Under the pieces are notes generated by a model. That model was given only the letters and a program-made list of their open reading frames with translations, searched no databases and was not told where the DNA came from. A stretch of DNA of 39,151 bases, taken from the IMG/VR virus record IMGVR_UViG_3300044712_001107, positions 1-39,151 of that record. One strand, 5' to 3'. This DNA is from a virus. Made by a program: the position numbers and the translations under genes. Positions 2,077 to 39,151 of this stretch are shown one piece after another. Each line of letters begins with the position of its first letter. The stretch's first letter is position 1.

Positions 2077-2775
2077 TTACTGAATACCAAGATAGTGCAA
2101 CAATCGTTCATACTGCCATTTTATTTCGGCGTCCCTGGCGGCGGCCCTGGCGGCGGCCCTGGCGGCGGCCCTGGCGGCGGCCCTGGCGGCGGCCCTGGCG
2201 GCGGCCCTGGCGGCGGCCCTGGCGGCGGCCCTGGCGGCGTCCCAGGCGGCGGCCCAGGCGGCGTCCCAGGCGGCGGCCCTGGCGGCGTCCCAGGCGGCGT
2301 CCCAGGCGGCGGCCCAGGCGGCGGCCCTGGCGGCGGCCAACTCTTCGCTTGACGCTTCTCCGCTGGCGAATTTTCGCGCGGTTTCAATTGCGCTTCGTGG
2401 CCTCGCGTCTTCCGAAAATTCGCTCTCAAAAAACTTCAGCGACCGCTCAGCACAATCGCAGGCGAACAACCGCATAGCGCGTTCATCCCAGGCCACAAAC
2501 TGGCGCAGCAGGCGTGCTTCATGCACGACAAATTTGTCATCATCGTCAATGCGCTCTCCGCGAAATTCGGCTTCAAAAATGGCCTGGCCAATCCACTCCA
2601 TTACCTGCGTATTTTCGCAAAGGTGATAGCCTCTCTCGCATAACGAGATTTTCTTGACCAGCGGCATCCATTCACCAGGCGTCCATGTGCCGTCGTCATT
2701 TTTTACCGGCAGGCTCCACCGCGCGCTCCCGCCGTGGCAGGATGTTCCATCGAAGTGCAGGACTTTGAATATCAT
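2077..2775 (-). CDS. DUF7666-like N-terminal domain with Ala/Arg/Trp/Asp tetrapeptide repeat (232 aa)
   Basis: Residues 1-125 match a phage/metagenome family I know from its motifs: HFDGTSCHGG, a Trp-rich loop, SLCERGYHLCENT, AEFRGERIDDDDKFVV, and RLFACDCAERSL. Residues about 150-215 are a low-complexity tetrapeptide repeat (R/W)(A/D)AA, encoded by a near-perfect 12-bp tandem repeat. The end, EIKWQYERLLHYLGIQ, is helical. The repeat should form a long alanine-rich helix with Arg/Trp on one face. The function of the family is not established. It begins 23 bases after the SSB-like gene. Confidence 0.75.
   Translation of the reverse strand: MIFKVLHFDGTSCHGGSARWSLPVKNDDGTWTPGEWMPLVKKISLCERGYHLCENTQVMEWIGQAIFEAEFRGERIDDDDKFVVHEARLLRQFVAWDERAMRLFACDCAERSLKFFESEFSEDARPRSAIETARKFASGEASSEELAAARAAAWAAAWDAAWDAARAAAWDAAWAAAWDAARAAARAAARAAARAAARAAARAAARAAARAAARDAEIKWQYERLLHYLGIQ
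2129..2338 (-). repeat. 12-bp tandem minisatellite inside the repeat-protein gene
   Basis: About 17 consecutive copies of a 12-base unit (plus strand GGCGGCCCTGGC; variants carry CCAGGC or GTC). Because 12 is a multiple of three, copy-number changes keep the gene in frame. The left part is nearly homogeneous (RAAA units), and the right part mixes WDAA, WAAA and RAAA, which suggests recent expansion at the left edge. All reading frames stay open through the repeat. Confidence 0.95.
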
Positions 2776-4860: not shown

Positions 4861-4890
4861 TTGTAAGTGGTAAGTTGTAATTACTTACAA
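4861..4890. promoter_or_regulatory. Operator O1 (30-bp dyad)
   Basis: A 30-base element bounded by TTGTAAGT and ACTTACAA, with GGTAAG inside the left half. It is nearly the same sequence and exactly the same length as O2. It covers the start region of the leftward promoter, whose -10 begins two bases away. Probable binding site of the XRE repressor encoded at 4986-5216. Confidence 0.8.
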
Positions 4891-4891
4891 T

Positions 4892-4919
4892 ATTATAGCA
4901 GGTTGCATGAAAAATGCAA
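4892..4919 (-). promoter_or_regulatory. Leftward early promoter (PL-like)
   Basis: On the minus strand: TTGCAT (4919-4914), a 16-base spacer, and a perfect TATAAT (4897-4892). The -35 is inside O2 and the start point falls in or beside O1. It reads into the small-gene operon beginning at 4843. Confidence 0.7.
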
Positions 4920-4943
4920 GTGGTAAGATGTAACTACTTGCAT
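4914..4943. promoter_or_regulatory. Operator O2 (30-bp dyad)
   Basis: Second 30-base copy, bounded by ATGCAAGT and ACTTGCAT. Its centre is 53 bases from the O1 centre, about five helical turns, so proteins on both sites would face the same side. Its left edge contains the -35 of the leftward promoter and its right edge the -35 of the rightward promoter. One occupied site could therefore silence both. Confidence 0.8.
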
Positions 4944-4966
4944 TTTCTAATCTTTGGGTTTATACT
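4938..4966 (+). promoter_or_regulatory. Rightward repressor promoter
   Basis: TTGCAT (4938-4943), a 17-base spacer and TATACT (4961-4966), followed by an AGGAGG ribosome-binding site and the repressor gene. The -35 is the right edge of O2, which predicts autoregulation by the repressor. Confidence 0.7.
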
Positions 4967-5346: not shown

Positions 5347-5357
5347 TTTAGTGCTTG

Positions 5358-5430
5358 TGCCGAGTCACAGAATCGGACTGTGGACACTGCGATTTTCAGT
5401 CGCATGCTCTACCAACTGAGCTAACTCGGC
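5358..5430 (-). tRNA. tRNA-Phe (anticodon GAA), possible attachment site
   Basis: All four stems are intact: a 7-bp acceptor GCCGAGT/ACTCGGC, D stem GCTC/GAGC, anticodon stem TGCGA/TCGCA around CTGAAAA (anticodon GAA), and T stem CACAG/CTGTG. The 73 bases end at discriminator A, and CCA is not encoded. Positions 1-48 look like an ordinary bacterial tRNA-Phe, but the T loop reads TCCGATT, so position 55 is C instead of the near-universal U (pseudouridine 55). It lies 24 bases beyond the stop codon of the integrase gene on the same strand, the usual place for an attP that uses a tRNA gene. Confidence 0.9.
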
Positions 5431-7665: not shown

Positions 7666-8198
7666 ACGATTTTCTTTACTGCGACGGCGGGGTTATCCAG
7701 GTCAACCCATCCCCCATCGGCGGCACCTTTGCCTACCGCATTCTTCGAGACGGCCAGGTCATCCGCGAAAACGGCGGGGTGATCGTGGCCGATTCCGCCC
7801 AGCCCCTGATCAGCAACAACCTCACCGAAATGCTCGCCCTGGTGCGCGGGTTGGGCGAGCTGCCCGACGATTGGACCGGCACGATCTGCAGCGACTCGCA
7901 GATCACTCTCGGGCGCGCCTTCCATGGCTGGAAGTGGACCAACGTGCCGGCCTGGCTGCGCCACGAATACGCTGCCAACCGCCTGCGCCTGGTCAACTGG
8001 GCGAAGATTACCCCGCTGCTGCTGTCCGGGCATCCCACGCGCGCGCAGCTGCAAGAAGGAATCGGCAAGCGCGGCACGCCGGTCAGTGAGCATAACGTCT
8101 GGTGCGACCAGCAGTGCGGCCAGATGGCTGCCGAAGTGCTCAACCTGCTGAAAGTGAAAGAAGGCCTGAATGTGCGCCCGCTACCAGTTCCTCAATAA
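7662..8198 (+). CDS. RNase H-like nuclease (178 aa)
   Basis: The motif order fits the RNase HI fold: YCDGG at residues 6-10 (first Asp), SNNLTEMLALVRGL (Glu), ICSDSQITLGR (second Asp), and EHNVWCDQQCGQMA near 143 (final Asp). Family members cleave the RNA strand of RNA-DNA hybrids, so removal of replication primers or transcripts at the origin is likely. The start overlaps the initiator stop (ATGA), tying it to replication. The spacing between motifs is unusual, so I hold the enzymatic call as probable only. Confidence 0.6.
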   Translation: MNDFLYCDGGVIQVNPSPIGGTFAYRILRDGQVIRENGGVIVADSAQPLISNNLTEMLALVRGLGELPDDWTGTICSDSQITLGRAFHGWKWTNVPAWLRHEYAANRLRLVNWAKITPLLLSGHPTRAQLQEGIGKRGTPVSEHNVWCDQQCGQMAAEVLNLLKVKEGLNVRPLPVPQ

Positions 8199-8394
8199 AT
8201 CCCTGGCCGCCGCTGCCCAGCGCGCCCACCAGACCGACACGCCCCTGGAGAAATCCAAGGACTTCACCGAGACCCTTTACCGGATGCGCGCCCACCGCGA
8301 GGAATGCCAGGAGTGCATTGACGAACTCAAGGCCGCCTTCCCCGAGCTGAAGGGCCAGAACCTGATCATGCAGTCTTTGCTGACGGAGGAATGA
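8170..8394 (+). CDS. Small helical protein with CxxC (74 aa)
   Basis: Overlaps the RNase H-like gene by 29 bases and has a purine-rich AAAGAAGG site upstream. The protein is helical, with a CQEC pair in REECQECIDELKAAFPELKG and an acidic C-terminus ending MQSLLTEE. No family recognised. Its stop overlaps the next start (ATGATG). Confidence 0.65.
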   Translation: MCARYQFLNKSLAAAAQRAHQTDTPLEKSKDFTETLYRMRAHREECQECIDELKAAFPELKGQNLIMQSLLTEE

Positions 8395-8819
8395 TGGAAG
8401 TCCTGATTGCAGTTTTTGCATTCATGCTCTTTTTGACGATAACTACAGCGCGGTTGTTTCGCCCGCGCCACGGGCCCATGCGGGTGGTGCTGCTGCCCCA
8501 GGCCGAACCGCAGACCGAGGCCTACTACGGTCAGCACTATGATTTGCCCGGCCAGCATTCCGAGCGGCCGCAGATCTACGTCTGCGTCAGTGGCGTATGC
8601 AGCCCGACACGCCAGTACCAGGCCACCGGCAGATACATCCACTCGACCGCAGAGGAACGAGATGACTTTGACCGGGCCCAGACGCGCGCGGCCTATCAGC
8701 TCACTGGGGCAGAGATGCCCAGCGAGTGGGAAGAGATCGCCCAGATCGAAAACGGCCAGGTCATTGACGCCGAATTTGAGCCGGTAAAGGAAACCCTATG
8801 GTCTGCACACAACCGCTGA
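8391..8819 (+). CDS. Membrane-anchored hypothetical protein (142 aa)
   Basis: A single N-terminal transmembrane helix (EVLIAVFAFMLFLTITTARL, residues 3-22) is followed by a basic stop-transfer stretch and a soluble domain. That domain contains VCVSGVCSPTRQYQATG and an acidic C-terminus. Probably an inner-membrane protein with a cytoplasmic domain. It overlaps the next gene by 22 bases. Function unknown. Confidence 0.65.
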   Translation: MMEVLIAVFAFMLFLTITTARLFRPRHGPMRVVLLPQAEPQTEAYYGQHYDLPGQHSERPQIYVCVSGVCSPTRQYQATGRYIHSTAEERDDFDRAQTRAAYQLTGAEMPSEWEEIAQIENGQVIDAEFEPVKETLWSAHNR

Positions 8820-9007
8820 CAATCGCCGCGATTGAGAAAAATTACACCTGCTGCCTGACGCGCGTGCGCGACTCTCACCTGCTGAGCATGCCGCTGCGCA
8901 TGGCGATGTTCACCACTGCCGGCGGATGGGTGCTGATGGCCCATATCACAGACCGGTTTGTTATCCCGGAATGCAGCCGGCCCTATGTGCTGCTCAGCAG
9001 CAACTGA
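8798..9007 (+). CDS. Small cysteine-containing protein (69 aa)
   Basis: Begins MVCTQPLTIAAIEKNYTCC; mixed alpha/beta, with four cysteines of which three lie in the first 21 residues. It overlaps the preceding gene by 22 bases and has a GGAAACCCT stretch before its ATG. No recognisable domain. Confidence 0.55.
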   Translation: MVCTQPLTIAAIEKNYTCCLTRVRDSHLLSMPLRMAMFTTAGGWVLMAHITDRFVIPECSRPYVLLSSN

Positions 9008-9034
9008 GAATAACCAATAATAACTGGAGGAACG

Positions 9035-9385
9035 ATGGATAAACAAGAACTCTTTAATAGCAAACCTTCGGGTGATCGTTTACAAGCCTTGCGCGAAATT
9101 GCAGCCATGATGCACGCGCAGGATGGCACTTTCGTTATTCCCGAAAAGGTTGAATACCCAGAACCGGAGCCCGCTGCCGCGGCCACCGATGCCCCTATGC
9201 TGGTCGCTGAGCCTCCCGCCGAAACTGATGCAATGGGCTACCCGTTACCCGCGATATTTACAGCGCCGAACCCTGACCGTGTCCACAAAGGTGGCCCGTA
9301 TTTCAACCCCACCAAAAAGGTCAAGGAAGAGAGCAAGAAACGCCGCAAGATGGCTGCCAAATCCAGAAAGGTAAACCGCCGCTAG
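9035..9385 (+). CDS. Hypothetical protein with basic C-terminus (116 aa)
   Basis: A TGGAGGAACG site stands before the ATG. The N-terminal third is helical (SGDRLQALREIAAMMHAQDG), the middle is disordered and Pro/Ala/Glu-rich, and the last 25 residues are strongly basic (KKVKEESKKRRKMAAKSRK). The tail suggests nucleic-acid binding. No family recognised. Confidence 0.7.
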   Translation: MDKQELFNSKPSGDRLQALREIAAMMHAQDGTFVIPEKVEYPEPEPAAAATDAPMLVAEPPAETDAMGYPLPAIFTAPNPDRVHKGGPYFNPTKKVKEESKKRRKMAAKSRKVNRR

Positions 9386-9443
9386 CCCCCTCCCCCACTT
9401 AAGGGAGCGTTTTACACCCCCCTACCGAGGCGCACTCTCACAA

Positions 9444-10043
9444 ATGAAACCAAAACTCCGCACTCCCCTGATCCTGCTCACCGCTGCCGCCCTGCTGTGG
9501 ACCATCTCCGGCATGATCGACTCTCGCCCGTGGTCGCTGCTGATCCAGGCGGTGATGTTCATCTGCGGTGGGGCGGCGCTCTACACCGGCCTGTCTCACC
9601 TGGTGTACACCACCGCGGATGTGATGGCCCGCTTCGCCGCGGCGCGCTCCGCCGGCGACCTGCCGCGCATCCAGGCGGTGACCAATATGCTGCAGGTGAC
9701 CAAAACCATGACCGAGTCTCAACTGGCCGTGATCGGCAGGCTGCGGCCGGAAATGGAAATGGTCCCCGGCAACGGAACTGATCCGCTCTACACCCTCGTG
9801 CTCCCGGCCGCGCGCGTACCCTGGGATTTCGTTGAGGACTGGGTCCACCAATGCAGCGACTCTGCCCTGGTGCCCGTGCGGCGCTGGTCGGAGGGCTCCA
9901 AGAGGCGCGAATATGCCGAAGCGCTGACTGCCCACATGATTGACGGCGGCTACGCCAGCCAGCCGGCCGGCAACGAACCTTCTCACTGGGTCAGCCCAAA
10001 GGCAAGAGACGCCGGGCTGCTCAGCATCGGATACAAGGAATAG
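9444..10043 (+). CDS. Two-TM membrane protein with soluble domain (199 aa)
   Basis: Residues 9-24 (LILLTAAALLWTISGM) and 32-55 (LLIQAVMFICGGAALYTGLS) are hydrophobic helices joined by a short loop. About 140 soluble residues follow, with a helical part (QAVTNMLQVTKTMTESQ) and a mixed domain containing WDFVEDWVHQCSDS, EYAEALTAHMIDGGYA. It has its own 58-base upstream gap. Probably anchored in the inner membrane. Function unknown. Confidence 0.7.
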   Translation: MKPKLRTPLILLTAAALLWTISGMIDSRPWSLLIQAVMFICGGAALYTGLSHLVYTTADVMARFAAARSAGDLPRIQAVTNMLQVTKTMTESQLAVIGRLRPEMEMVPGNGTDPLYTLVLPAARVPWDFVEDWVHQCSDSALVPVRRWSEGSKRREYAEALTAHMIDGGYASQPAGNEPSHWVSPKARDAGLLSIGYKE

Positions 10044-10064
10044 GCGCCCTGCATGGAGGCCTGA

Positions 10065-10184
10065 ATGAGTGAATCACTAATTGTTTTTTTCGTCGGAATG
10101 TTCATCGGGGCGGGCATTGTAATATTTTCTGCCCTATCTGTTTTGGCGGCAATCGAATTTATAAAAAATCGAGGAAATGAATAG
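10065..10184 (+). CDS. Tiny single-TM protein (39 aa)
   Basis: Short gene preceded by GGAGG (TGGAGGCCTGA before the ATG). The product starts MSESLIVFFVGMFIGAG and is essentially one transmembrane helix with a glycine-zipper-like GMFIGAG, ending in a charged tail FIKNRGNE. It fills the gap after the two-TM gene. Function unknown. Confidence 0.6.
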   Translation: MSESLIVFFVGMFIGAGIVIFSALSVLAAIEFIKNRGNE

Positions 10185-27504: not shown

Positions 27505-28623
27505 TTATTTCTCCTTCGCAAATTCAGCCAGGTTGTAATCGGCCATTGCACCGAGTTCAACCGCGTTGGCTTTGAAAAATTCCTCAATCGTCTGCCCGGC
27601 AGCGATCCAGGATTTAAGGTGAACGGCCATCTCGGGCGGCATCACCGCCGTCCCGACCTGGGTGCGGGAAGATCCGCGCTCAGAAAAACTGATCAGCCCG
27701 GCCTCGTGAATCCGGCTCAGAAGTCCCTCGGCTTTCGCCTGCGCTTCCGGGGAGAGCGAGGTCAGAAATTCAGCCAGCTCATCAGTAGGAATAGGCAAAC
27801 CCATGGGGTGCGCTTCTGTTCCACCGGTCAGCCGGCTGCACAGCTCGGTGACGTGCGCCTGGCGCTGCTCGGTGGCAATGCGCTCAGTCGCAATCACGGC
27901 CGCGCGCTGTTCGATCAGCGCCTGCAGTTCGGCGGGTGGATTGCCGGAGGTCAGTTCGGCTCGCGCTTGCTGGAGAAACGTGTCTTTCTGTTCCTGCGTC
28001 AAGTTGGCGAAATCCATATCTGTTACCTCCAAATCTGTGGTGTCCGGTTCCGTTTCCGGCGCCGGCTTGTTGGGACCAGGCAGCCGTGCGGCAAGCCCGG
28101 AAATAGCTTTTTCTACGACCATCTCCACCCGTTCGATCAGGTTCATTTCGGGCAGCGTCTCCAGCTGTGCGGAGAGCTCCACCGGGCGCAGCAGGATCTG
28201 GTGATCGGCGGTGCGGCTGGCCGGCCAGTTGGTCAACGAGCCGCCCGTGATAACCTGCGCTTCGATATCAATGGTCGGGCTGAAGAAGCGCATCTGATCT
28301 GAGCCAACCAGCTGCCGGCCCATCTCGGTCCAGCGCGGCACGATCTGCACCACCCCGCCCACCTGCTGCACGTCCGTGATCCAGCCGGCGGCCTCGCCGT
28401 GGTTGTGGTTCATCGCGTCAATCGGGAAGCCCACCACATCGCCATTGGCGTCACGGGTGGACTGCAGCGCCATGCGCGTCTTGAGCACGTAGGTGGCCAG
28501 GTCTTCGGGTTTGATCTCGAGCTGCTGGCCCCACATATCGGTGAACTTGCCCGATGCCATGCCGTCAATGGCTTTGGCGTCCATCAGTGTCTGCAGGTTT
28601 ACGAACAGAAAATCTTTTTTCAT
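27505..28623 (-). CDS. Head maturation protease/scaffold, Mu gpI-like (372 aa)
   Basis: The start MKKDFLFVNLQTLMDAK (ATG 28623) has a TTTGGAGA site; a TTG 15 bases upstream would lie in it. Residues about 1-170 hold the protease domain: AMNHNHGEAAGWITDVQQ, then PRWTEMGRQLVGSDQMRFFSP. The rest is helical and Gln/Glu-rich (NLTQEQKDTFLQQARAELTS), a scaffold-like region. The gpI family cuts itself and the scaffold during head maturation. It is the first gene after the promoter-leader-terminator module. Confidence 0.8.
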   Translation of the reverse strand: MKKDFLFVNLQTLMDAKAIDGMASGKFTDMWGQQLEIKPEDLATYVLKTRMALQSTRDANGDVVGFPIDAMNHNHGEAAGWITDVQQVGGVVQIVPRWTEMGRQLVGSDQMRFFSPTIDIEAQVITGGSLTNWPASRTADHQILLRPVELSAQLETLPEMNLIERVEMVVEKAISGLAARLPGPNKPAPETEPDTTDLEVTDMDFANLTQEQKDTFLQQARAELTSGNPPAELQALIEQRAAVIATERIATEQRQAHVTELCSRLTGGTEAHPMGLPIPTDELAEFLTSLSPEAQAKAEGLLSRIHEAGLISFSERGSSRTQVGTAVMPPEMAVHLKSWIAAGQTIEEFFKANAVELGAMADYNLAEFAKEK

Positions 28624-28636
28624 AAGGTCTCCAAAC

Positions 28637-28674
28637 AAAAAGGCCGAACGCGCCGCGGTTGCGGTGGTTCGGCC
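28637..28674 (-). terminator. Leader terminator before capsid block
   Basis: GGCCGAAC (28642-28649) pairs with GTTCGGCC (28667-28674), and on the minus strand the hairpin is followed by TTTTTG (28641-28636). It lies about 50 nt after the start of the promoter at 28731-28758 and just before the ribosome-binding site of the protease gene, in the position of an attenuator or antitermination target. Confidence 0.85.
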
Positions 28675-28730
28675 AGTTGTTGAACGAGGTCGATACTATG
28701 TAATTTTTAGAACGTGCATCCTACAAAATT

Positions 28731-28758
28731 ATTATAGCACCGTTGGAAAATATTACAA
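28731..28758 (-). promoter_or_regulatory. Late promoter for capsid/tail block
   Basis: On the minus strand TTGTAA (28758-28753), a 16-base spacer, and a perfect TATAAT (28736-28731). It lies in the 135-base gap between a small-gene stop and the protease gene; the -35 directly follows the stop codon. Same spacing and same -10 as the promoter at 37571-37598. Confidence 0.7.
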
Positions 28759-29104: not shown

Positions 29105-29761
29105 CTAAAACGTGTAAACCTGGCCCTTGTCGTCATACAGATAATGCTGGCATTCCCAGCAGCCGCACTCGTAGTTGTCGTTGCCGCGGTAGATCAGCAA
29201 GCCGTGGTTCTTCCACCAACTGGCCTTGTGGCGCTGGCCCTTCAGGCGCTGGCAGGTGCCGCACGATTCCTTGCCGTCCGGCCCGCCCAGGGTGAGCATT
29301 TTATTGGCAGCTCCGCGCACTTTGCCCGCGCTGTAGATCCCATCCAGCGTGCGCGCGTAACCCTCAGACCTGGCCTCGGACACGCCGGCGAGGATACCGG
29401 CGCCTTCGTCTTTGGCTTCCTTTTTCAGGTCGCGCAGCTGGTAGAACAGCTCGTCCACAAAACCAAACTCCCGCTCCACGCGCGCGTTGATCCACTCCAG
29501 GTCTTCGCCCTCCGCCGGCGCCGCTCCGCCGCCGTCAATCAGGCCCTGCTCGAAGGCCGGGTAAAACGCAGCCAGGATCGCCTTCTTAAACAGATTGCGG
29601 AAGCGGGTGATCCTGACACTGTCGGAGTACAGATACTCGGTGATGTAGCCGGCGCACTCGATTTTATAAGCGGAGCGAATCGGGGCGTAATCACCGATGG
29701 AAAGTTCCACTGCCGCGGCCGCGGCCGCGATGTGCTCAATCGCCGCATCGATATTAGACAT
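29105..29761 (-). CDS. Phage head morphogenesis protein, Mu gpF-like (218 aa)
   Basis: Helical N-terminal region with AILAAFYPAFEQGLIDGG. The C-terminal part is cysteine-rich and typical of the gpF-like end: ESCGTCQRLKGQRHKASWW and ECGCWECQHYLYDDKG. These proteins bind DNA or the portal during head assembly. It overlaps the portal stop by eight bases. The cysteines could bind zinc. Confidence 0.75.
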   Translation of the reverse strand: MSNIDAAIEHIAAAAAAVELSIGDYAPIRSAYKIECAGYITEYLYSDSVRITRFRNLFKKAILAAFYPAFEQGLIDGGGAAPAEGEDLEWINARVEREFGFVDELFYQLRDLKKEAKDEGAGILAGVSEARSEGYARTLDGIYSAGKVRGAANKMLTLGGPDGKESCGTCQRLKGQRHKASWWKNHGLLIYRGNDNYECGCWECQHYLYDDKGQVYTF

Positions 29762-31163
29762 TGCGCATCATCTCCGGGTGGTGGAGCAAATAGCGCGCCC
29801 AGCGGCTGCGCAGTTCGGCTTCAGCTGGGGGCGTGTCGGTCGGTTCGTCATCTTCCGGCGTGTCCTCTGTAGGCGGGGCATCCTGCGCGGGCGCGTTATC
29901 CTGCGGCGGCGCCTGCGGAGCGTCCTTCACCTTGGGCAAGTTCTCGGGCAGGAAGTCGGTCAGCTTGCGGATGGCCTTGAAGTCCTCATCGCCCAGGGGC
30001 ATGACGGCTTTCAGGGGAGCCAGGATTGAAGCCAGCTCGCCCAAAGAAATCTTCTTGCCCAGGCTGGTGATGGTGATCTTGGGCATCTCGCTGACGCCCT
30101 GAAATACCGATGGGTTCCATTCCTTCAGCTTTGGCACCAGGGTCTTATCGATCTGGTTGGCAAAGCCTTCCATCATGCCGTTGAAGGCAGTCATGAACAT
30201 GCTGCTGCTGTCGGTCATGGCCGCATTGGAGCCGGCGCCGGTGGTAGCCGATAGGGTGATCCACTGCGCCAGGAACAGTTGCAGCTTGACAATGCCGTAA
30301 TACTTGATTGCCTCAAGCAGCGCAGCAGCGGCGCTGAAAGGGATGTCCTTCAACTCGCCCGTGTAGCCTTTGGGCCATACTGCATAATTGCCCTCCTGCG
30401 CGGTGGTCACGGCATGCGCGGCTTTGGCCACGTCCTGCTTATCCGCCGGGGTCAGGGCCTGTTCGGCTTTGACATCCAAATAGCCGGCGGAGTGCTCGAA
30501 GCCGATGCCCTGGACAATCTCAAGCCCGTATTTAATTCGCTCCAGGCGCCAGACCGCCTCTAAAGGCGTCAGGCCTTCCGGGTTGTGGCTGTCGCCGAAG
30601 GTCAGATGCAGGCAGTTCTCCAGCGGCAGGGTCACCATCGGGTTGGGATAGACAAACTGCACCATGCCGATAACCTTGCCGTTGGGGTTGAATTCCCAGC
30701 GGTAAAACGAGCTGCTGTCACGCCAGCCCAGCCGGCGGATGCCAATCTTGTTGTCGCTGTACTGGCTCTGCCAGTCGTCTTCATCCGGCGGCTTCCACTT
30801 GGGCGAGCGCACGCCGGGCACGATTTCCCACAGGCCCCAACCAAAGAAGGGCACGTTATTAATCAGCGTGTCCAGGAAGGTCGAAGGGCCGCCGTCCATA
30901 TCTTCCAGGCATTGCTCGATAAACTCGCCGGCCGCCTCGTCTGCCGCGTTGGGGTTATCGGGCAGCTGCACCTCAAAGGACAGGCCGCGCGCGAGGGCGG
31001 AGAATACGAACCGCACCATCGAGACCTCGGGGTCCGAGCGGCGCAGGCGCGAATAGAGCGGCTGCACGCCTGGCCAGCGCAAATCTTTATGGTACGCGGC
31101 TTCAACAAACCCCATAAACTGCTGAAGGCCGGTCCTGCCAATTTCGGAAAATTCGACTGCCAT
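29754..31163 (-). CDS. Portal protein, DUF935/Mu gp29-like (469 aa)
   Basis: Portal motifs of the DUF935 family are visible: FSALARGLSFEVQLP, NVPFFGWGLWEIV, GWRDSSSFYRWEFN, FVYPNPMVTLPLENCLHLTF, and EGLTPLEAVWRLERIKYGLE. The C-terminal 70 residues are Pro/Asp/Glu-rich and disordered. It follows the terminase by nine bases and leads into the gpF-like gene, the normal packaging order. Confidence 0.85.
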   Translation of the reverse strand: MAVEFSEIGRTGLQQFMGFVEAAYHKDLRWPGVQPLYSRLRRSDPEVSMVRFVFSALARGLSFEVQLPDNPNAADEAAGEFIEQCLEDMDGGPSTFLDTLINNVPFFGWGLWEIVPGVRSPKWKPPDEDDWQSQYSDNKIGIRRLGWRDSSSFYRWEFNPNGKVIGMVQFVYPNPMVTLPLENCLHLTFGDSHNPEGLTPLEAVWRLERIKYGLEIVQGIGFEHSAGYLDVKAEQALTPADKQDVAKAAHAVTTAQEGNYAVWPKGYTGELKDIPFSAAAALLEAIKYYGIVKLQLFLAQWITLSATTGAGSNAAMTDSSSMFMTAFNGMMEGFANQIDKTLVPKLKEWNPSVFQGVSEMPKITITSLGKKISLGELASILAPLKAVMPLGDEDFKAIRKLTDFLPENLPKVKDAPQAPPQDNAPAQDAPPTEDTPEDDEPTDTPPAEAELRSRWARYLLHHPEMMRNV

Positions 31164-31172
31164 AGTTATCTC

Positions 31173-32621
31173 CTAACTCCAACGATTCGAGTAATTCTCT
31201 GTAGTTCCCAGGTCACGAACATCGTCCCAGGTGGCGCCGGCGTCTGCCAGGCGCAGGAACGCGCCGCTGGCCGCATCGACCTGGTCGTCATTGGCCCCGT
31301 TGGGAAACGAGGTCAGTTCGTCGATAAAATCCTCATTCCAGGCGCCTACCACTAATTTGACATTGCTCACTTCCGCCTGGCTAGCCAATGGATCGGCCCG
31401 CACTGCCTTTTCTCCGGTAACCTTGTCGGCATGGACGCCGTAGCCGCTCAGCATGGTCACCAGGTTATTAATCACGTCCACGCCCGAGCTGCCCGGTTCC
31501 TGTTCCAGCCAGATCTGTACGTTGCTGTACTTCGCCCGGTCTGCCGCCGCGGTTTGCTTGATGATCCGGTCGCGCTCACCGCTTGACCACTGCCCGCGGA
31601 TGACATCAATCACGTAATAGGTGGTGCCCACGCGAGCCATCAGCAGGCCCACCGTATAATCGCCGTCATTGGCCGTGGCGCCGCGGTCCCAGTAGCGCAC
31701 GTACACCGCGCCATCGGTGGGGGCCCCGCGCACGATCTCAAACCAGGAGCGCTTGAAGAAGTCGCCTTCTTGCTCCATTGGCCGCTGCTGGTACAGGGCC
31801 CAATAGGAGCGTTTCAGCACGACCTTGATCTTGGCCAGCGCTTCCAGCGGGTAGCGCTGCGGGTTGAGCGCTTCACCGACCTGGCGCCCGAGCGGGTCGT
31901 TGGCTTCGGCCTCTGCCGGCAGCCGCAGCACCTTCCAGTTGGGCCCATCCTCGCTGCGCAAAATCCGCCCGGCCAGGTCGTCTTCATGCCAGCGGGTCAT
32001 AATCAGGATGATCGCGCAGCCGGGTTCCTGGCGGGTGTACAGATCATCGGTGTACCAGTCGTAAACCGCGTCACGGTAAACCCGCGACTGCGCTTCCTTG
32101 CGGTTCTTGACCGGGTCATCGATCACGATCAGATCGCCGCCCTGGCCGGTGATGCCGCCGCCCACGCCCACCGCTCGCATGCCGCCGCCGGCGGTGGTTT
32201 CCCAATCGTGCACGGCGGAGCGTTCATTGCTCAGCGCCACACGGGTGGAGGCGATCCGCCGACTCTTGCGGCTGAATTTCTCTGCCAGCGTCTGGTTGTA
32301 TGCGCCGATGATCGCCCGCATGCCGGGGTTCTTCTCCAGGCGGTAGACCGGGTAGCGCACGGTGACCAGCTCACTCTTGCCGTGCCGCGGCGGGATGAAG
32401 AGCATCAACTTCTCCATCTCTCCTGCAGTTATCTTGTTAAGGTGCTGCTGAATGAGGAGCTGATAGTCCCAGTTCCACACCCAGTTCGGCGTGACCTGTT
32501 TCAGCCAGGCCTGGTATCCAATAAACGCCTGGGCCGGCTTGCGCTGGATCTGCCGCCGGCGCAGTTCAAGCTCAGCCTCCGCGCGCAGCTGCAGATATGA
32601 CTTTGAGCGGGTCTTCGCCAT
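31173..32621 (-). CDS. terL: Terminase large subunit (482 aa)
   Basis: ATPase: Walker A PPRHGKSELVTV (about residue 78), Walker B DLIVIDDPVKNR, and the TRWHEDDLAGRI coupling motif. Nuclease: YVRYWDRGATANDGDY, WLEQEPGSSG and ANDDQVDAASGAF supply the acidic RNase H-fold residues. The enzyme cuts and translocates phage DNA through the portal. ATG at 32621 is preferred over TTG at 32627. It overlaps the small subunit by 50 bases. Confidence 0.93.
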   Translation of the reverse strand: MAKTRSKSYLQLRAEAELELRRRQIQRKPAQAFIGYQAWLKQVTPNWVWNWDYQLLIQQHLNKITAGEMEKLMLFIPPRHGKSELVTVRYPVYRLEKNPGMRAIIGAYNQTLAEKFSRKSRRIASTRVALSNERSAVHDWETTAGGGMRAVGVGGGITGQGGDLIVIDDPVKNRKEAQSRVYRDAVYDWYTDDLYTRQEPGCAIILIMTRWHEDDLAGRILRSEDGPNWKVLRLPAEAEANDPLGRQVGEALNPQRYPLEALAKIKVVLKRSYWALYQQRPMEQEGDFFKRSWFEIVRGAPTDGAVYVRYWDRGATANDGDYTVGLLMARVGTTYYVIDVIRGQWSSGERDRIIKQTAAADRAKYSNVQIWLEQEPGSSGVDVINNLVTMLSGYGVHADKVTGEKAVRADPLASQAEVSNVKLVVGAWNEDFIDELTSFPNGANDDQVDAASGAFLRLADAGATWDDVRDLGTTENYSNRWS

Positions 32622-33195
32622 TGGCAATCCGTTCCAGCTGTTCGTCGGTCAACCCTTGCAGGTCAAGGTTCAATGAGGTTGAATTCTGCTTGCGCTGCCC
32701 AACCTCCTGGGCGATGTCATCCAGGGTGCCGCGGAATTGCTCAAGCAGGGCGGCGTTGAATCGCACCAGGTCAACCCGCTCGGCAAACTCTCCGCTGCCG
32801 ATGGATTTCACATCCGGCACCCAAACCTTATCCTCCTGGCTGATTTCCTTTTCAAGCCACAGCGCCAGGTTCTTCAGGCTGCGCACGCGGATGTGGTCCA
32901 AAGCGAATCCTTCCTGCAGCACGGCCAGGCGTTCGGCCTCTGCGCGGCGGGAGGCCTCCTGCGACATGGCGGTGTCCCAGTCTTCGGCGCGCTTGTGCCA
33001 TTTGTATTTTTTGGCCGCGTTGCGCCATGATCCGGGCAGCATGCGCGACTCTTTTATCCCTTTGAGGACTCTTTCCTTGTTTGCCGCGCCCAGAATGGAG
33101 CGCGTTGGGCCCATCATGCGGAAGAGCTCAAAGCGCTGGTACCACAGGTTATTCTCCGCCGGCAGCCGTTCCCAGCTCAGGCGTTTCTCGCTCAT
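32572..33195 (-). CDS. Probable terminase small subunit (207 aa)
   Basis: The start MSEKRLSWERLPAENNLWYQ overlaps the upstream stop (ATGA). The protein has a helix-turn-helix-like part (SWRNAAKKYKWHKRAEDWD) and a long helical C-terminal half (SLKNLALWLEKEISQED, ALLEQFRGTLDDIAQE). Its position directly before the large subunit and its size fit a DNA-recognising small subunit. Confidence 0.7.
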   Translation of the reverse strand: MSEKRLSWERLPAENNLWYQRFELFRMMGPTRSILGAANKERVLKGIKESRMLPGSWRNAAKKYKWHKRAEDWDTAMSQEASRRAEAERLAVLQEGFALDHIRVRSLKNLALWLEKEISQEDKVWVPDVKSIGSGEFAERVDLVRFNAALLEQFRGTLDDIAQEVGQRKQNSTSLNLDLQGLTDEQLERIANGEDPLKVISAAARGG

Positions 33196-37080: not shown

Positions 37081-37461
37081 TTAAGCGTCAGGGGTGCGAA
37101 TTTTCGCCAGTTGCACGCTGGCTTTAGGATCATGGTTGAAATTCTCGTTGACCGCCTTTTCAATCGCAGCATCAAGCAGGTGCAGATCGACTTTGACCCC
37201 TCTGGCTTTCAGCCACTGTTCGGCTATTTCCAGCGCATAATCCTTCTTGCTTTCGATCAGGCCGGCCAACTTCGACTGCTCCGCCGCCTTTACCGCAAGA
37301 TCCGCGGCCGATTCCACGGCCTCTGCCCAATCCGGCGCGTAGGCTTTCGCGCGCGCCCAAGCCAGCTTGCCCTGGGCAAACAGCCATCCCAATAAGGCCA
37401 CGGCCAGAATAGGTGCCACGTTCAGCAGCACCTGTTCACCAATTTTTTGTAGCAGTTCCAT
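37081..37461 (-). CDS. Phage holin, LLH family (126 aa)
   Basis: N-terminal hydrophobic segment (LLNVAPILAVALLGWLFAQG) is followed by the recognisable LLH-holin body: YALEIAEQWLKARGVKVDLH and LLDAAIEKAVNE. Family members form membrane lesions that release the lysin. A CTGGAGGCGAT site lies before the ATG, just after the leader terminator. The lysin gene is about 21 kb away in the same direction. Confidence 0.85.
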   Translation of the reverse strand: MELLQKIGEQVLLNVAPILAVALLGWLFAQGKLAWARAKAYAPDWAEAVESAADLAVKAAEQSKLAGLIESKKDYALEIAEQWLKARGVKVDLHLLDAAIEKAVNENFNHDPKASVQLAKIRTPDA

Positions 37462-37478
37462 ATCGCCTCCAGGTAAAC

Positions 37479-37510
37479 AAAAAGCCCCAACGTCAATAAG
37501 ACGCTGGGGC
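37479..37510 (-). terminator. Leader terminator before holin/packaging block
   Basis: GCCCCAACGTC (37484-37494) pairs with GACGCTGGGGC (37500-37510), 10 of 11 pairs plus one G-U; on the minus strand it is followed by TTTTTG. It is about 54 nt downstream of the predicted start of the promoter at 37571-37598 and just before the holin ribosome-binding site. Confidence 0.9.
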
Positions 37511-37570
37511 GTAATTCCAACCGTGCCTCTAGGCCATGGCCGCGCGCAACTGCGGCATTCCGCTACTCAA

Positions 37571-37598
37571 ATTATAGCCCGTTTCCTGGTATTTTCAA
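37571..37598 (-). promoter_or_regulatory. Late promoter for holin/packaging block
   Basis: On the minus strand TTGAAA (37598-37593; five of six consensus bases), a 16-base spacer, and a perfect TATAAT (37576-37571). This is the best sigma-70-type promoter in the window. It overlaps the end of the upstream gene. The 109 bases from the -10 to the holin start otherwise hold only the leader and the terminator. Confidence 0.8.
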
Positions 37599-37808
37599 TC
37601 ACTTCTTTAAGAGCTGCTCCGAACTTGTCCAGTGCCACTCGATTCCGCACGCGCATCTGCCGTGCGCCGCGTACAGCTCCAGGCTGCCGACTCTCAGCCA
37701 GGCCCGCCCGGAGATTTCCACCACTTCGCCCAACTGCGCGCTGCAGGATGGGCATGCAATTACCGCCGGCTGCGCGGCTGCTGTTTTGTACGTTGCTCTT
37801 TCTTCCAT
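37599..37808 (-). CDS. Zinc-ribbon protein (69 aa)
   Basis: ACPSCSAQLGEVVEISGRAW followed by RCACGIEWHWT gives a clear four-cysteine zinc ribbon. The start overlaps the preceding gene by 49 bases. It is the last gene before the late promoter, which begins in its stop region. A late-gene regulator could sit here, but a ribbon alone does not prove it. Confidence 0.7.
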   Translation of the reverse strand: MEERATYKTAAAQPAVIACPSCSAQLGEVVEISGRAWLRVGSLELYAAHGRCACGIEWHWTSSEQLLKK

Positions 37809-37975
37809 GATTCCTCGATGGTTTCAGCCGGCGGGATGTAGGCGACCAACCGGTAAGGTAACTCTTTCTTTTTATCCGCCTGGCGCAGGAACATACCGCT
37901 CAGGAAAGCGCCGGCGACCAGCATAACACCCAGGATGACAACCAGGGCGATGGCGATGGTGACCGCGGCGCTCAC
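37760..37975 (-). CDS. Single-TM protein (71 aa, GTG start)
   Basis: GTG at 37975 overlaps the stop of the nucleotidyltransferase gene (GTGA). Residues 3-30 form a transmembrane helix (AAVTIAIALVVILGVMLVAG), followed by a basic cytoplasmic tail (WKKEQRTKQQPRSRR). Probably a small inner-membrane protein of unknown function. Confidence 0.6.
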   Translation of the reverse strand: MSAAVTIAIALVVILGVMLVAGAFLSGMFLRQADKKKELPYRLVAYIPPAETIEESWKKEQRTKQQPRSRR

Positions 37976-38577
37976 TTTGCACCCCAGGTAAACAGGCGAA
38001 CGTCGCCCCAACGCCGTTCGGGCGAGATATCCCCGGATAGGCCTAGTGTTCTGAATATGCCGTCTTCGGTGCCGTCATCCATGCGCTTGTCGCCCTGAAA
38101 TACCCCATAGCCGGCGCGGTATTTCATACCGAACCTTTGGGCCCGCTGGCAGAGCATAATGTTAAACCGTTCGTCACCCGTGCGCATCTGCAGCAGCGCG
38201 CCCCAGTTCGAGCCGTCCGGTTCGGTCAGGTAGAGCTCCACCGGAACTTCGACCGGTGCGCCGACCGGCTTCAGTTTCAGAATGCGCGGCCAGGCTTCCT
38301 GCAGGGGAGCGTCGTACCAGTCCAGATCCTTCAGTAAGTTCAGCAGCATGACCGGCCGCGCAATGGTCTTGACCTCGCCAAACAGATCGGTCTGCCCGGC
38401 GGCGACGTAATCCACCTTGGGCCAGAGCACAATGTCAACATCGTGCACGGTCTCTTTGCGCCGGCGGACGCTGCCGGCGACCATAATCTTTTCGCAGCAC
38501 GGCGTCAGAACTTCAATCACGTGCGCGGCGACCTGGTCGGCCAGTGCGAGGCGGTAGTGGACTTCGTTGTCGCTCAC
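37972..38577 (-). CDS. DNA polymerase X-like nucleotidyltransferase (201 aa)
   Basis: AGSVRRRKETVHDVDIVLWP at residues 34-53 is the Pol-beta-type GS...DxD signature (Asp at DVDIV); further Pol X features are VELYLTEPDGSNWGALLQMR with a third acidic residue and the GLSGDISPERRWGDV end. The enzyme would transfer nucleotides to DNA or RNA ends. It has only a palm/catalytic part and no 8-kDa or HhH domain, so a repair polymerase or template-independent transferase are both possible. Coupled to neighbours by four-base overlaps. Confidence 0.75.
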   Translation of the reverse strand: MSDNEVHYRLALADQVAAHVIEVLTPCCEKIMVAGSVRRRKETVHDVDIVLWPKVDYVAAGQTDLFGEVKTIARPVMLLNLLKDLDWYDAPLQEAWPRILKLKPVGAPVEVPVELYLTEPDGSNWGALLQMRTGDERFNIMLCQRAQRFGMKYRAGYGVFQGDKRMDDGTEDGIFRTLGLSGDISPERRWGDVRLFTWGAK

Positions 38578-38816: not shown

Positions 38817-39004
38817 GATTCTCGATCCTCCTGGGCCGGCCGCAGCTCGTCCTCGTAAAACAGGCCGCGGCAGGGCCCGAACTGAACCTTGTAAAGAATT
38901 CCGTCCAGTATGCTCAGCGGGCGGACTTCCAGCACCACGCCAATCACCCGTGTTGCGGTCGTGGCGTGGTGCACCTGGTCACCGATAGAGAATTTATTTT
39001 CCAA
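38813..39004 (-). CDS. Small SH3-like protein (63 aa, TTG start)
   Basis: TTG at 39004 follows AGGAGG closely. The protein (MENKFSIGDQVHHATTATRV) has the strand order of small SH3/KOW-like barrels: IGDQVHH, GVVLEVRPL, YKVQFGPCRGLFYEDELRP. Such domains bind nucleic acid or peptides. It overlaps the 42-aa gene that crosses the contig end. Confidence 0.65.
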   Translation of the reverse strand: MENKFSIGDQVHHATTATRVIGVVLEVRPLSILDGILYKVQFGPCRGLFYEDELRPAQEDRES

Positions 39005-39122
39005 GTGCCTCCTGCAGTCTGATCCATAATTCGGTCTCTACGTCCGTGGCCGGCATCGGGCGGCCTTTGTTGATCAGCACCACCCAGTGCCCGCCGGGCA
39101 TCTGCTGCAGTTCCACAGCCAT
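38994..39122 (-). CDS. Small 42-aa protein, complete copy
   Basis: Complete reading of the gene cut at the left contig end: MAVELQQMPGGHWVV... ending LQEALGK, stop at 38994-38996. Strand-rich centre (GHWVVLINKGRPMP) and a short C-terminal helix. The start of the next gene (TTG 39004) lies within its last codons. Function unknown. Confidence 0.55.
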   Translation of the reverse strand: MAVELQQMPGGHWVVLINKGRPMPATDVETELWIRLQEALGK

Positions 39123-39151
39123 GCGCGGGGTGGCTGCGTGAGACTGGGGCC
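39000..39151. repeat. Right copy of the contig-end direct repeat
   Basis: This copy matches bases 1-152 except at 39126 and 39135. It allows the small gene that is cut at the left end to be read complete here (38994-39122), and it joins the leftward gene run at 123 to the one starting at 39004. Confidence 0.9.

Follow-up and report, generated by a model that had tools for sequence, protein, structure and literature searches.

Promoters followed by terminators precede two late gene blocks of a probably temperate phage and suggest an antitermination gate outside the known Q families

At one locus of the virus genome analysed here, a near-consensus promoter is followed by an intrinsic terminator, and both lie ahead of the ribosome-binding site of the holin gene. 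Does this stop signal hold back the late genes until a phage factor lets the polymerase pass, or does it have another function? The genome, IMG/VR record IMGVR_UViG_3300044712_001107, is 39,151 bases long and was analysed in full (the window). Its termini (1-152 and 39000-39151) repeat each other with 150 of 152 positions identical, so the assembly probably covers the whole genome and runs on beyond its starting point. The window encodes an integrase and a complete tRNA-Phe, and the phage is therefore probably temperate. The tRNA-Phe gene (5357-5430, minus strand) adjoins the integrase gene and is likely either an attachment site or a carried tRNA. The minus strand carries the late genes, which code for holin, terminase, Mu-like portal, and Mu-like protease. 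Homologues suggest that the host may belong to the Anaerolineae.

The locus, designated site A, reads on the minus strand in the order gene 37808-37599, promoter, leader, terminator, ribosome-binding site, and holin ORF. The features of site A and its surroundings are as follows.

37972-38577, minus strand: gene of a 201-aa protein with a weak DNA-polymerase-beta-thumb match
37599-37808, minus strand: gene of a 69-aa zinc-ribbon protein, its stop codon abutting the -35 hexamer
37593-37598, minus strand: -35 hexamer, TTGAAA
37577-37592, minus strand: 16-bp spacer, ATACCAGGAAACGGGC, a candidate factor-binding element with a weak AACGG.GC motif in common with site B
37571-37576, minus strand: -10 hexamer, TATAAT
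37511-37564, minus strand: 54-nt leader with a predicted start near 37564
37484-37510, minus strand: intrinsic terminator stem-loop, -21.9 kcal/mol
37483-37478, minus strand: terminator tail, TTTTTG
37466-37470, minus strand: ribosome-binding site of the holin gene, GGAGG in the sequence
37081-37461, minus strand: first late gene, holin LLH of 126 aa (PF09682 Holin_LLH, E 3.3e-6), ATG at 37461
31173-32627, minus strand: terminase large subunit gene, downstream of site A
29754-31163, minus strand: portal gene (Portal_Mu)

Every part of the layout described in the earlier note, TTGAAA-16-TATAAT, then 54 nt, then a terminator before the holin ribosome-binding site, was confirmed on the minus strand. 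The promoter matches at 11 of 12 positions a consensus of E. coli sigma70 type. The terminator has an 11-bp stem with eight G-C pairs, a loop of five, a U5 run, and the tail TTTTTGTTTA. No similarity match was found in the phage collection for the DNA of the site A region, nor any match for the holin protein, and the analysis turned up no close relatives of the window.

A second promoter-leader-terminator unit, absent from the earlier note, is located at 28758-28642 on the minus strand before the capsid-protease gene (site B).

28731-28758, minus strand: promoter TTGTAA-16-TATAAT
28675-28724, minus strand: leader with a predicted start near 28724
28642-28674, minus strand: intrinsic terminator, -22.8 kcal/mol, with a TTTTTG tail (TTTTTGTTT)
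28632-28629, minus strand: ribosome-binding site of the protease gene, GGAG
27505-28623, minus strand: Mu-like I protease/scaffold gene (PF10123), first gene after site B

The spacer is 16 bp long at both sites, and the gap between the -10 and the stem is 56 nt at site B versus 60 nt at site A. From this layout, an RNA some 80-86 nt in length is predicted. The two leaders were rejected as copies of one another, their sequences being unlike. With the hexamers excluded, the spacers are weakly similar (p=0.028), and p=0.058 was obtained for the 16 nt after the -10; these values hint faintly at a recognition element that the two sites might have in common.

The pairing of promoter and terminator is not a chance arrangement. 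In the scan, promoters scored with a sigma70 matrix were paired with intrinsic terminators 15-130 nt downstream; the matrix was an approximated, hand-entered one of E. coli, from which the consensus of the host may differ. At strict thresholds (promoter score at least 13, hairpin -20 kcal/mol or lower), two pairs were found in the window, sites A and B, versus none in 100 dinucleotide-preserving shuffles, and the two promoters have the top scores of the window scan. The pR'-tR' pair of lambda was recovered. The annotated PR'-tR' of P22 was not listed, so the scan is not exhaustive.

The layout also recurs in the late operons of related phages. A set of 209 partly overlapping loci around related terminases, about 2 Mb, was searched for promoters with a score of at least 11 located 15-130 nt upstream of a strong terminator, distinct terminators being counted. 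On the late (terminase) strand, such a promoter precedes 18 of 138 strong terminators; on the opposite strand the count is 0 of 75, and in random windows a promoter was in range for 0.8%. Genes behind the pairs include holin-like membrane proteins, the terminase small subunit, the portal, and a scaffold-like gene. Terminase-linked pairs were found in contigs of Anaerolineae genomes as well, including two long ones of 136 and 287 kb, and the layout precedes the holin genes of the holin relatives L004, L006, and L011. Of the longer records, G004 and G005 have the closest terminases, and neither shows a qualifying pair before its late genes at the same thresholds. Very short leaders, with 25-32 nt between the -10 and the stem, precede holin-like genes in L042, L046, L204, L212, and L037; they are partly related to one another, and TGTGCTTTGCC is present in several. 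A GTAG-like motif after the -10 of several sites was remarked by eye and is not claimed as a signal.

A pattern search with the leaders of L006 and L011 picked up additional contigs of viruses along with two genomes of Anaerolineae. In the L274-L282 family obtained in this way, the region from promoter spacer through terminator is conserved. The late leader (GGCGTTTGTTGGCTTCCAACCAACCA...) is strongly conserved in this family, L286, and L287, with first late genes that are not homologous; in the family this gene codes for holin-LLH in some members and for an unrelated membrane-like protein in others. Among diverged members, leader and terminator have an identity of 0.74 versus 0.26 in the upstream DNA, and the spacer one of 0.61 versus 0.35 in the 20 nt upstream of the -35. 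The earlier note had proposed to look for covariation of the leader in related phages. Compensatory changes were recognized at three pairs of the upper terminator stem (in only seven sequences). The window does not have the conserved leader of this family.

The earlier note had compared site A with lambda pR'-tR', where the signals are a Q-binding element in the spacer, a -10-like pause element, and a -35-like element. The order of the parts bears out this comparison, as in lambda too a sense promoter and then a terminator lie ahead of the lysis genes. The distance between the -10 and the stem is different, 60 nt at site A versus 143 nt in lambda in the identical scan. Q-type late promoters need a binding element between the -35 and the -10 together with a -10-like pause element (PMC6606751). 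No protein of the Q families PF03589 or PF06530 was found in the window or in nine related records at E<=1. The -10-like pause element is at chance level, as equally good elements were present in 74% of shuffles for site A and 30% for site B, and the mean across sites was below that of the shuffles. No convincing Q-binding element emerges from the spacer similarity (p about 0.03) either; affiliation with the Q family is therefore not shown, and this part of the lambda comparison is unconfirmed. Phage P22 offers a precedent. In its annotation (NC_002371), the antiterminator gene 23, the late promoter (37852-37880), the terminator (37917-37945), and holin gene 13 (at 38244) follow one another, and the terminator begins 30 nt after the transcription start. 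The Q-dependent unit of P22 and site A thus have in common a regulator-position gene, a strong promoter, a leader of 30-60 nt, an intrinsic terminator, and a holin. In contrast to P22, the upstream gene of the window codes for an unrelated 69-aa zinc ribbon and not for a Q-family protein, two promoters would be gated in one genome, and the phage collection contains no DNA similar to the region. The sequence itself, site B, the related phages with this layout at their late operons, and PR'-tR' of P22 all back the assignment of site A as a late promoter with a leader terminator before the holin and packaging genes.

With moderate confidence, sites A and B are interpreted as late-gene gates under a trans-acting phage antiterminator, in which transcription from an early or constitutive promoter would stop at the terminator. 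Promoter activity, termination, and conditional read-through are predicted here from the sequence. A strong host promoter of sigma70 type would fire early or constitutively at both sites, but the polymerase would be halted by the intrinsic terminator ahead of the first late gene, and a short transcript some 80-86 nt long would result. Once the phage is induced, a factor that it encodes would load at the promoter or immediately downstream of it, and the polymerase carrying this factor would resist the terminator. The holin, packaging, and portal genes behind site A and the protease, capsid, and tail genes behind site B would then be made together. The terminator of site A may additionally block read-through from the upstream minus-strand operon. 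The location of both late blocks (lysis, packaging, and capsid) behind a promoter and a stop signal suggests that a phage protein must let the polymerase pass.

Other readings of the two units were considered. The short RNA could itself be the product, a small regulatory RNA, with the late genes expressed by partial read-through or from another promoter. The sar and oop units of P22 are annotated with their own promoter and terminator, and an RNA acting in trans would be consistent with the conservation of leader and terminator loop in the L274-L282 family. However, sar and oop run antisense to the genes with which they overlap, whereas the units of the window are in sense orientation directly before late ribosome-binding sites, occur twice in one genome, and would give RNAs that are unlike. 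As the Rfam scan of the window also found the tRNA alone, with no known leader RNA or riboswitch at site A, a regulatory RNA is considered unlikely. Simple insulation of operons by the terminator, with a weak or dead promoter and with a phage activator or sigma factor acting at other promoters, is quite unlikely. A run of minus-strand genes, extending from 4843 across the join of the record's ends to 37599, does lead into site A, inter-operon terminators are common, and the E. coli-type matrix may not represent the consensus of the host; against this, at both sites, as in many relatives (18 of 138 versus 0 of 75), the promoter comes ahead of the terminator, and the promoters of the window are those ranked highest by the scan.

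A cis-acting leader RNA, which the earlier note had offered as the alternative to an antitermination factor, would act by attenuation through an alternative hairpin, a ligand, the ribosome, or a structure like put of HK022. A small GUUGG/CCAAC hairpin of the L274-L282 leader overlaps the terminator foot, and both leaders of the window have an ATG at +6/+7 with 7-9 codons, which would fit this mode of control. At site A the claim failed its test: an alternative antiterminator hairpin is not supported, with 89% of shuffled leaders sequestering the 5' arm of the terminator equally well or better, and 78% of shuffles fold at least as well as leader A. No site in the set was exceptional in sequestration of the 5' arm. 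The tiny ORFs have no spaced ribosome-binding site, and that of leader A stops about 23 nt before the terminator stem; short upstream peptides were therefore rejected as attenuators. The put element is a structured RNA in a short leader just after the promoter, with two sites per genome. The window resembles HK022 in the short leader and the two sites, but leader A is not more structured than its shuffles. With no Rfam family either, control in cis is very unlikely.

A trans-acting antiterminator of no known Q family is favoured, since the cis test failed at site A and no known Q family was found in the window or nine related records. The gate would then follow the logic of P22, lambda, and AlpA with a factor outside the known Q families. 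AlpA of Pseudomonas aeruginosa is a non-Q factor that acts at two promoters through an element between the -35 and the -10 (PMC7969949, PMC9371919). Its two target promoters, the intrinsic terminator just before the first gene, and the lysis genes driven are like the layout of the window; AlpA is a helix-turn-helix protein, unlike the zinc-ribbon candidate discussed below, and the spacer element of the window is weakly supported. P7 of Xp10 is a phage protein by which the host polymerase bypasses intrinsic terminators ahead of late genes (PMC6624301). The proposed factor is similar to P7 in its phage origin and in terminator bypass before late genes; P7 is set apart in the description consulted, which gives no promoter-proximal element of the window's kind.

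The zinc-ribbon gene is the first candidate for the factor, because it lies directly upstream of the promoter, like the Q gene of lambda and gene 23 of P22; that its product is the antiterminator is a guess from position only. Lambda Q carries an inserted zinc finger (PMC9371919), which may be noted as a resemblance only. A zinc-ribbon gene is located upstream in the window and in seven of seven distinct genomes of the L274-L282 family, in two of these immediately ahead of the promoter, the position it has in the window. The protein of the window and that of L006 are 30% identical over 54 residues (E 2e-8 in a single comparison). G003 has a homologue of the 201-aa protein at the corresponding place upstream of its zinc-ribbon gene. 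Since the genomes share synteny, the linkage of zinc-ribbon gene and leader alone does not establish that they are connected in function. G002, G006/L037, and L042 have the layout with no zinc-ribbon gene directly upstream. No homologues were found in phage records, and none were confirmed by a pattern scan of viral contigs, a scan that was insensitive, as loci found later do hold zinc-ribbon genes. Sequence and fold searches of the PDB gave nothing significant for the protein, whose model is of medium confidence (pLDDT 74). It is a tentative and rather doubtful idea that this protein and its relatives of 65-75 aa are a new family of processive antiterminators in temperate phages linked to Chloroflexota (Anaerolineae), which would load at elements close to the late promoters and carry the polymerase past the neighbouring leader terminators, here at two late operons.

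Gating of late genes by a promoter and a leader terminator is already known from lambdoid coliphages. That its layout is present twice in one genome and across many terminase-related viral contigs, in phages linked to Chloroflexota, points to a wide distribution of this logic where known Q proteins are lacking, and new antiterminators would thus remain to be discovered.

Some minor observations were made in the same genomes. In L006 (1550-3510; about 8000-10150 in G003), a DNA methyltransferase gene lies between the zinc-ribbon gene and the late promoter. It is flanked by two terminators with a common ACCAACCA/TGGTTGGT stem and looks like a moron insertion. The C-terminal part of the 232-aa protein encoded in the window at 2077-2775 (minus strand) is made up of a lengthy AAWDAA/AARAA repeat rich in alanine. 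At 4880-4950, close to a promoter-like site, direct repeats and dyads occur densely (TTGTAAGTGGTAAG..., ATGCAAGTGGTAAGATGTAACTACTTGCAT); these are possible immunity operators.
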